Positions 8,849 to 9,242 of a stretch of DNA of 64,000 bases are shown in pieces. A program made the position numbers and the translations under genes. The notes beneath the pieces are model-generated. The model was given only the letters and a program-made list of their open reading frames with translations, was not told where the DNA came from and did not search any database. This stretch comes from Pelagomonas calceolata (Eukaryota; Sar; Pelagophyceae; Pelagomonadales; Pelagomonadaceae), in the NCBI GenBank assembly GCA_918797485.1, contig CAKKNE010000003.1:3038001-3102000 (forward strand), in the 5' to 3' direction. Position 1 is the first letter of the stretch. Every line of letters begins with the position of its first letter.

Positions 8849-8950
8849 GCTTGGGTGGTCTAGTTGGTTATGACGTCCTACCTAGTGCTAAACTGGGTAC
8901 GTCCTTGCTTCACACGCAGAAGGTCGCGAGTTCGAGTCTCGCCTCGAGTA
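8849..8950 (+). tRNA. tRNA-Val (CAC) with a 28-nt bulge-helix-bulge intron at position 28/29
   Basis: Acceptor GCTTGGG (8849-8855) pairs with CTCGAGT (8943-8949), including G-U pairs. D-arm 8858-8874 with intact A box TGGTCTAGTTGG. Anticodon loop TTCACAC at 8909-8915 (CAC at 8911-8913). T-arm GCGAG/CTCGC with loop TTCGAGT, discriminator A8950, then a T-run. Removing 8878-8905 leaves a perfect anticodon stem TCTGC/GCAGA and a normal 74-nt tRNA. The insert folds as central helix GACG (8872-8875)/CGTC (8900-8903), bulges TC|C (8876-8878) and CT|T (8904-8906), and a 7-bp intron stem TACCTAG/CTGGGTA with a 7-nt loop. Cutting between bulge nucleotides 2 and 3 gives exactly this excision. No intron at the usual 37/38 site. 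Confidence 0.9.
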
Positions 8951-9107: not shown

Positions 9108-9122
9108 AAATAAAAAAAAAAT
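9108..9122 (-). terminator. Pol III T-run terminator of tRNA-Ala
   Basis: On the minus strand a T tract begins one base after the discriminator base of the tRNA-Ala gene. Confidence 0.8.
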
Positions 9123-9242
9123 TGGAGATAATACTGATTTATGCATATTTCGCATATAGAATCGAACTCATGACCTCCCGCATGCTAAGCAGGCGCTTGC
9201 GATTCCGTTGTTGTACGGATCTACCAACTGAGCTATATCCCC
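9123..9242 (-). tRNA. tRNA-Ala (AGC) with two bulge-helix-bulge introns (22/23 and 62/63)
   Basis: Acceptor GGGGATA (9242-9236) pairs with TATCTCC (9130-9124), discriminator A at 9123. Anticodon stem CCTGC/GCGGG, loop TTAGCAT (AGC = Ala). Intron 1, 9198-9220 (23 nt), splits the D-stem GAGC after its first G. Intron 2, 9134-9157 (24 nt), splits the T-stem CTTAT after CT. Total 120 nt minus 47 gives a normal 73-nt tRNA. Intron 1: central helix TGGT/ATCG (two G-U pairs), bulges AG|A and CA|A, stem TCCGT/ACGGA. Intron 2: central helix GATT/AATC, bulges CT|A and AG|T, stem TATGC/GCATA. Each cut falls between bulge nucleotides 2 and 3. The A box and the GTTCGATTC B box are uninterrupted. Confidence 0.92.

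Follow-up and report, generated by a model that had tools for sequence, protein, structure and literature searches.

Does a stretch of DNA that reads as a tRNA gene only when two inserts are taken out of it represent a gene of functional type or a decayed one? The question is raised by nucleotides 9123-9242 of the window (the whole 64-kb stretch of Pelagomonas calceolata DNA that was analysed), which lies on contig C3 (5.39 Mb), one of the six large contigs and nuclear by its match to the published assembly, in which the six nuclear contigs are accompanied by plastid (90 kb) and mitochondrial (39 kb) sequences (PMC9481584). A preliminary description had placed a 120-nt tRNA-Ala(AGC) gene here, on the minus strand, and the coordinates, lengths, strand, anticodon, cut sites and helices that it gave are all present in the sequence. 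Splicing out 9198-9220 and 9134-9157 (23 and 24 nt) yielded the 73-nt tRNA (22 + 40 + 11) with complete stems that had been claimed: the acceptor stem has 7 bp, the D-stem 4 bp, the anticodon stem 5 bp and the T-stem 5 bp, every stem is kept by the exons and the standard bases are complete after removal of the inserts. Both intron sites, 22/23 and 62/63 in standard numbering as assigned by script, are outside 37/38. The parts of the gene are as follows.

9221..9242, minus strand: exon 1, positions 1-22 (acceptor 5' strand, D-stem 5' strand, D-loop)
9198..9220, minus strand: intron 1, 23 nt, at 22/23; bulges AG|A and CA|A; 5-bp inner stem
9223-9226 and 9200-9203, minus strand: central helix of intron 1, exon TGGT with intron ATCG
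9158..9197, minus strand: exon 2, positions 23-62, with the anticodon AGC at 9184-9186
9134..9157, minus strand: intron 2, 24 nt, at 62/63; bulges CT|A and AG|T; 6-bp inner stem
9160-9163 and 9136-9139, minus strand: central helix of intron 2, exon GATT with intron AATC
9123..9133, minus strand: exon 3, positions 63-73 (T-stem end, acceptor 3' strand, U70, discriminator A73)
9224..9235, minus strand: A box, positions 8-19, unbroken, read from the sequence
9158..9168, minus strand: B box, positions 52-62, unbroken, read from the sequence; intron 2 begins right behind it
9112..9121, minus strand: run of 10 T 3' of the gene, a likely RNA polymerase III terminator, read from the sequence

The bulge-helix-bulge (BHB) motif attributed to intron 1, with two G.U pairs in its central helix, is seen in the sequence in the layout TGGT[AG|A]TCCGT-ACAACA-ACGGA-ATCG[CA|A]. 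That of intron 2 is seen in the layout GATT[CT|A]TATGCG-AAATA-TGCATA-AATC[AG|T], where the inner stem, described earlier as 5 bp, gains one G.U pair beside its five Watson-Crick pairs and so extends to 6 bp. Both exon-intron borders have 4/4 central pairs, 3-nt bulges and inner hairpins of 5-6 bp. The one-base ambiguity noted for the cut of intron 1 is real, in that two cuts are equivalent in sequence (the BHB score given is the better of the two), and BHB geometry favours the cut originally proposed. The polymerase III boxes lie in unbroken blocks, as had been stated, the role of the A box being established for this polymerase.

The Ala(AGC) gene has a disrupted, convergent neighbour 172 bases away, and T runs lie behind both genes (15 for Val, 10 for Ala):

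8849..8950, plus strand: disrupted tRNA-Val(CAC), finder score 34.4, identified by ARAGORN on the joined form
8878-8905, plus strand: Val(CAC) intron, 28 nt, at 28/29; BHB with 4/4 central pairs and an 8-bp inner stem

Scores are those of a tRNA finder that allows up to three cuts, searches both strands and scores only tRNA pairs and conserved bases, ignoring the BHB; its top loci in the window were Val(CAC) at 34.4 and Ala(AGC) at 30.3, with the third locus at 16.6. The tRNA-Tyr(GTA) gene at C3:3026706-3026833(-), which precedes the window by about 11 kb, combines a 40-nt BHB intron at 10/11 with a canonical anticodon-loop intron, and when joined by hand it is called Tyr by ARAGORN.

Disrupted tRNA genes were surveyed across the genome using B-box and A-box pattern matches, matches to Rfam RF00005 and fetched stretches, all parsed with a BHB bonus and retained at a score of at least 30. 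The survey is partial, enriched for one B-box type and no census: 100 of the 131 matches to the B-box pattern are listed (a reversed control gave 38), a further pattern requires a T that is absent from some intact genes (an intact Ala gene on C5 was missed), RF00005 scored 63 of 492 candidates, and one parse was kept per tile, so that some intact genes are outside the set. In this partial and biased sample 80 nuclear loci parsed at 30 or above, and 29 of these were disrupted, representing 13 isoacceptors (Ala AGC and CGC; Glu TTC; Gln TTG; Ile AAT; Leu AAG, TAA and TAG; Lys TTT; Pro CGG; Ser TGA; Tyr GTA; Val CAC). Three introns were found in Gln(TTG) and two each in Ala(AGC), Lys(TTT) and Tyr(GTA), with lengths of 13-40 nt among the genes parsed. 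With the canonical Tyr intron set aside, the 33 introns fall into 17 isoacceptor/site combinations, of which 16 form all four central pairs and the remaining one, Glu, forms three, a count that is biased for genes elsewhere than the window because most of their cuts were chosen with the BHB bonus; a parse blind to the BHB misplaces some cuts, for example in Pro(CGG), Leu(TAA), Lys(TTT) and Gln(TTG), and the BHB-bonus parse shifts them. ARAGORN called 31 of 31 rejoined genes (two of them permuted candidates that have no unspliced test) compared with 2 of 29 in unspliced form; the latter two, Ala(CGC) and Leu(AAG), were called from a shifted start, which offers an alternative reading for both. 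Acceptor-stem introns, at 5/6 and 7/8, are suggested by some of the parsed genes and are less certain because some shuffles of the upstream sequence reach the observed score (1/300 for Ile, 4/300 for Lys and 0/300 for Gln).

A 68-nt acceptor cut in Leu(TAA) at C1:5550097 proved false, the blind parse reading this gene as intact, and the number of disrupted genes fell from 30 to 29. A Glu(CTC) candidate at C3:958459 (28.2) and a Phe gene parsed at 23.1 are outside the disrupted counts, and a scan of viral contigs for the middle exon of Ala(AGC) gave no match. Repeated tRNA clusters were observed at C1:4451112-4452752, C1:5549517-5550179, C2:1776774-1777747, C2:5198012-5199525 and C2:6056174-6056978; these five hold Ala TGC, Arg TCG, Leu TAA, Ser TGA, Leu TAG and Trp CCA, some adding Arg TCT or CCT, and intact and intron-bearing copies of one isoacceptor adjoin in them.

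Among the sister copies of Leu(TAA), Leu(TAG) and Ser(TGA) the exons are near-identical. Leu(TAA) has at least four intact copies (C1:4451650, C1:5550097, C2:1777415 and C2:5198860) and four copies with an exact insert of 20-24 nt at 20b/21, the hairpins of which read TCATC/GATGA, TCGTC/GACGA (two copies) and TCTTC/GAAGA, so that one pair occurs in three Watson-Crick forms. The intron stems of Leu(TAG) are GCTC/GAGC (four copies), ACCC/GGGT and TAACC/GGTTA, and those of Ser(TGA) are TCGATT/AATCGA (three), TCGATT/GATCGA (two) and TTGATT/AATCAA. Pairing has been kept while sequence drifts, unlike what is expected of dead inserts. These compensatory changes come from the two Leu isoacceptors and Ser(TGA), the Ala(AGC) gene of the window having no sister copy.

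Two candidates for permuted genes, in which the 3' half lies upstream of the 5' half and the halves rejoin to a complete tRNA, were found: Ile(TAT) at C2:4253600(-), with a spacer of 3 nt, and Ser(CGA) at C2:5474172(-), its anticodon read by eye, with two further introns of 23 nt (4/4 central pairs) and 29 nt (3/4) and a T run behind the 5' half. They scored 37.9 and 32.0, respectively, against a maximum of 23.6 in 83 controls in which the B box was kept and the rest shuffled, and ARAGORN called both rejoined forms. At the junction the script found at most 1/4 central pairs for Ile(TAT) and at most 2/4 for Ser(CGA); by eye, Ser(CGA) can be joined at 37/38 with three of the four central pairs formed and with leader and trailer paired over 6 bp, and Ile(TAT) has a 6-bp leader/trailer helix without a central helix. 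An Arg-like candidate at C1:73743 (28.4) is outside the permuted set, and two high-scoring rows, at C1:1065522 and C2:979843, were rejected as an artefact of doubling, being linear genes that carry additional bases.

We regard it as very probable that Ala(AGC) is a nuclear gene of functional type whose two BHB introns are ectopic and spliced by proteins. That a permissive multi-cut parser has instead built a tRNA out of ordinary sequence is extremely improbable. Shuffled sequence does reach 19.7 (the top value among 8 dinucleotide-shuffled windows), and ARAGORN, a lenient judge of cut genes, accepts as some tRNA 114 of 2000 random double removals (23 + 24 nt) from the Ala(AGC) gene; however, none of the 8 shuffled copies reached 30, the observed score is 30.3, and all three introns of Ala(AGC) and Val(CAC) have 4/4 central BHB pairs, a feature outside the finder score. 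Nor did any of 20,000 mononucleotide shuffles of either Ala(AGC) intron reproduce the 4/4 central pairs together with the observed inner stem. ARAGORN called the spliced gene Ala(agc), and no tRNA was reported from the unspliced window by ARAGORN or by Rfam at gathering score; the minimum-energy fold of the joined form is a cloverleaf (-22.1 kcal/mol, z -1.37, with 17/200 shuffles as good). A further account, in which the inserts are real and are removed by another route, for example as one intron only or with cuts off by a base, is very unlikely. It draws on the two equivalent cuts of intron 1, on the canonical 37/38 intron of Tyr(GTA), which lacks a 4/4 BHB at the scripted cut, and on the free fold of the Ala(AGC) precursor (-31.7 kcal/mol, z -1.38, 12/200 shuffles at least as good), which differs from the BHB fold. 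A partial precursor structure containing both BHBs has -26.4 kcal/mol, above the free minimum, and folding leaves the BHBs unsupported as the thermodynamic optimum. Against this account, each insert alone breaks a stem (the D-stem and the T-stem, respectively) and a full BHB is present at both.

The account that bears most directly on function is that the window gene is silent or decayed, carrying two inserts, while an uninterrupted copy supplies Ala(AGC); we consider it unlikely. A silent locus beside uninterrupted Ala(AGC) genes had been named in the preliminary description as what would speak against its reading, and one uninterrupted gene does exist, at C5:5255748-5255820, but positions 3 and 70 of this copy are mismatched (A3.C70); G3:U70, the main alanine identity pair, is found in the window gene and in the seven further Ala genes parsed (one CGC, six TGC). 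A BLAST-type search with the joined 73-mer matched the window locus only, so that a second near-identical copy was not found; the diverged C5 gene was missed by this search as well. Insertions in the D- and T-arms of eukaryotic tRNA genes have, according to a 2014 review, mostly been taken as pseudogenes (PMC4090602), which favours decay; yet both inserts are exact BHB hairpins, all stems are kept along with G3:U70, a T run lies behind the gene, disruption recurs in 13 isoacceptors and compensatory changes are present in sister introns. Chance and pseudogene readings alike are disfavoured by the finder score, the shuffled introns, G3:U70 and the sister-intron compensation. Judged from the sequence, the functional Ala(AGC) gene is more likely the disrupted one in the window than the C5 copy. 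The latter is one of three uninterrupted genes, Thr(TGT), Ala(AGC) and Pro(CGG), at C5:5255634-5255894(-), about 33 kb from the contig end.

If Ala(AGC) is a gene of functional type with two spliced introns, RNA polymerase III would transcribe the 120-nt unit from the unbroken A and B boxes to the T run, and each intron would pair with the neighbouring exon to form a BHB. A Sen2/Sen34/Sen54 endonuclease would cut both bulges, guided by BHB geometry rather than by the fixed 37/38 position alone, and a ligase (RtcB is encoded) would join the exons to the 73-nt tRNA with G3:U70, which would then be charged and may be essential. A profile search showed that the Pelagomonas genome encodes two PF01974 proteins, one Sen2-like with an N-terminal domain (match at C5:536022-536258) and one Sen34-like (match at C2:3400105-3400335). 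These labels are likely and not firm, because archaeal endonucleases are the closest solved relatives of both by sequence, and eukaryotic Sen2 and Sen34 rank below them. A His and a Lys of the endonuclease catalytic set align with those of solved endonucleases. A Sen54-type match was found at C3:2957188 (2.1e-11) and an RtcB match at C5:639988 (2.4e-163); a search of the genome for Sen15 gave no match, which is weak evidence of absence.

The comparison with Cyanidioschyzon merolae made in the preliminary description is apt. The nuclear tRNA genes of this hot-spring red alga are reported to carry as many as three BHB introns each, in the D-, anticodon and T-arms, and permuted genes are reported beside them (PMC9602550, PMC3978253, PMC4090602); Sen2, Sen34 and Sen54 have been reported from it, with Sen15 undetected (PMC4090602). 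Pelagomonas, a stramenopile, shares the nuclear BHB introns in several arms, up to three per gene, the Sen2/Sen34/Sen54-type proteins without a Sen15 match and, as candidates, the permuted genes; it differs in having sister genes with and without an intron and in the less certain acceptor-stem introns suggested at 5/6 and 7/8. Non-canonical intron positions, with two or three introns in some genes, are also described for cryptophyte and chlorarachniophyte nucleomorphs (PMC4090602), which are reduced relict algal nuclei with introns down to 3 nt, whereas Pelagomonas has a full nuclear genome. Archaeal tRNA genes (Thermoproteales and others) are described with BHB introns at, for example, 20/21 and 22/23, up to three per gene (PMC4090602, PMC8450103), but are served by archaeal endonuclease types, in contrast to the eukaryotic-type Sen subunits and polymerase III-type internal boxes of Pelagomonas.

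Disrupted or permuted genes are on record from C. merolae, nucleomorphs, prasinophytes, Auxenochlorella (permuted) and archaea (PMC3978253, PMC9602550, PMC12636532, PMC4090602, PMC8450103, PMC4033280), and a 2014 table of multi-intron tRNA genes in eukaryote genomes has C. merolae alone (PMC4033280). Among the matches listed from the open-licence literature, including those for Pelagomonas, diatoms, pelagophytes and Aureococcus, no stramenopile report of ectopic multi-intron tRNA genes was found, and the word 'tRNA' is absent from the main texts of the genome paper (PMC9481584) and of that for a second strain (PMC13284251). The kind of gene represented by Ala(AGC) is already known, and what appears to be new, within this literature, is the stramenopile lineage. 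According to a 2021 description of the standard tRNA finder, a eukaryotic tRNA gene has at most one intron, and the search for non-canonical introns belongs to the archaeal mode (PMC8450103); genes of this type may therefore go unnoticed in algal genome annotations.

If our reading of Ala(AGC) is correct, ectopic multi-intron tRNA genes extend to a stramenopile nuclear genome. A wider proposal, which we advance tentatively and hold at a little below even weight, is that an abundant open-ocean picoeukaryote depends, for several amino acids, on tRNAs from disrupted or permuted genes only; that its SEN enzyme is position-independent and archaeal-like, cutting even acceptor stems; and that its introns are young and moving, sisters differing by a whole BHB intron, so that gain and loss would be visible within one genome. 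Sisters with and without the intron would provide a natural system for the question of tRNA intron gain and loss, and the Pelagomonas SEN complex would allow a test of what enables a eukaryotic enzyme to cleave at sites other than 37/38.

Some further tRNA-like sequences were observed. Recurrent tRNA 3' parts lie before Ser(TGA) genes (at loci L021, L024 and L029; C2:1777138 and C2:5199220), each consisting of the end of the anticodon arm, the T-arm and an acceptor strand whose last bases are ATCGGTC or GTCGGTC, and no 5' part could be recognised close to them; differences in the T-stem between copies are paired, and these may be orphan halves, parts of split genes or remnants. Intact-looking tRNA genes with stop anticodons, one CTA and two TTA, are present at C4:2222064-2222134(-), C4:3250018-3250088(-) and C6:2576357(+), and the gene at C2:979843(-) also has TTA, with a 7-nt insertion. 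Among the matches listed for the B-box pattern, pairs occur near 73.7-73.8 kb and 185.4-185.5 kb on C1 and C5, which fits the duplication reported at the ends of contigs 1 and 5 (PMC9481584).
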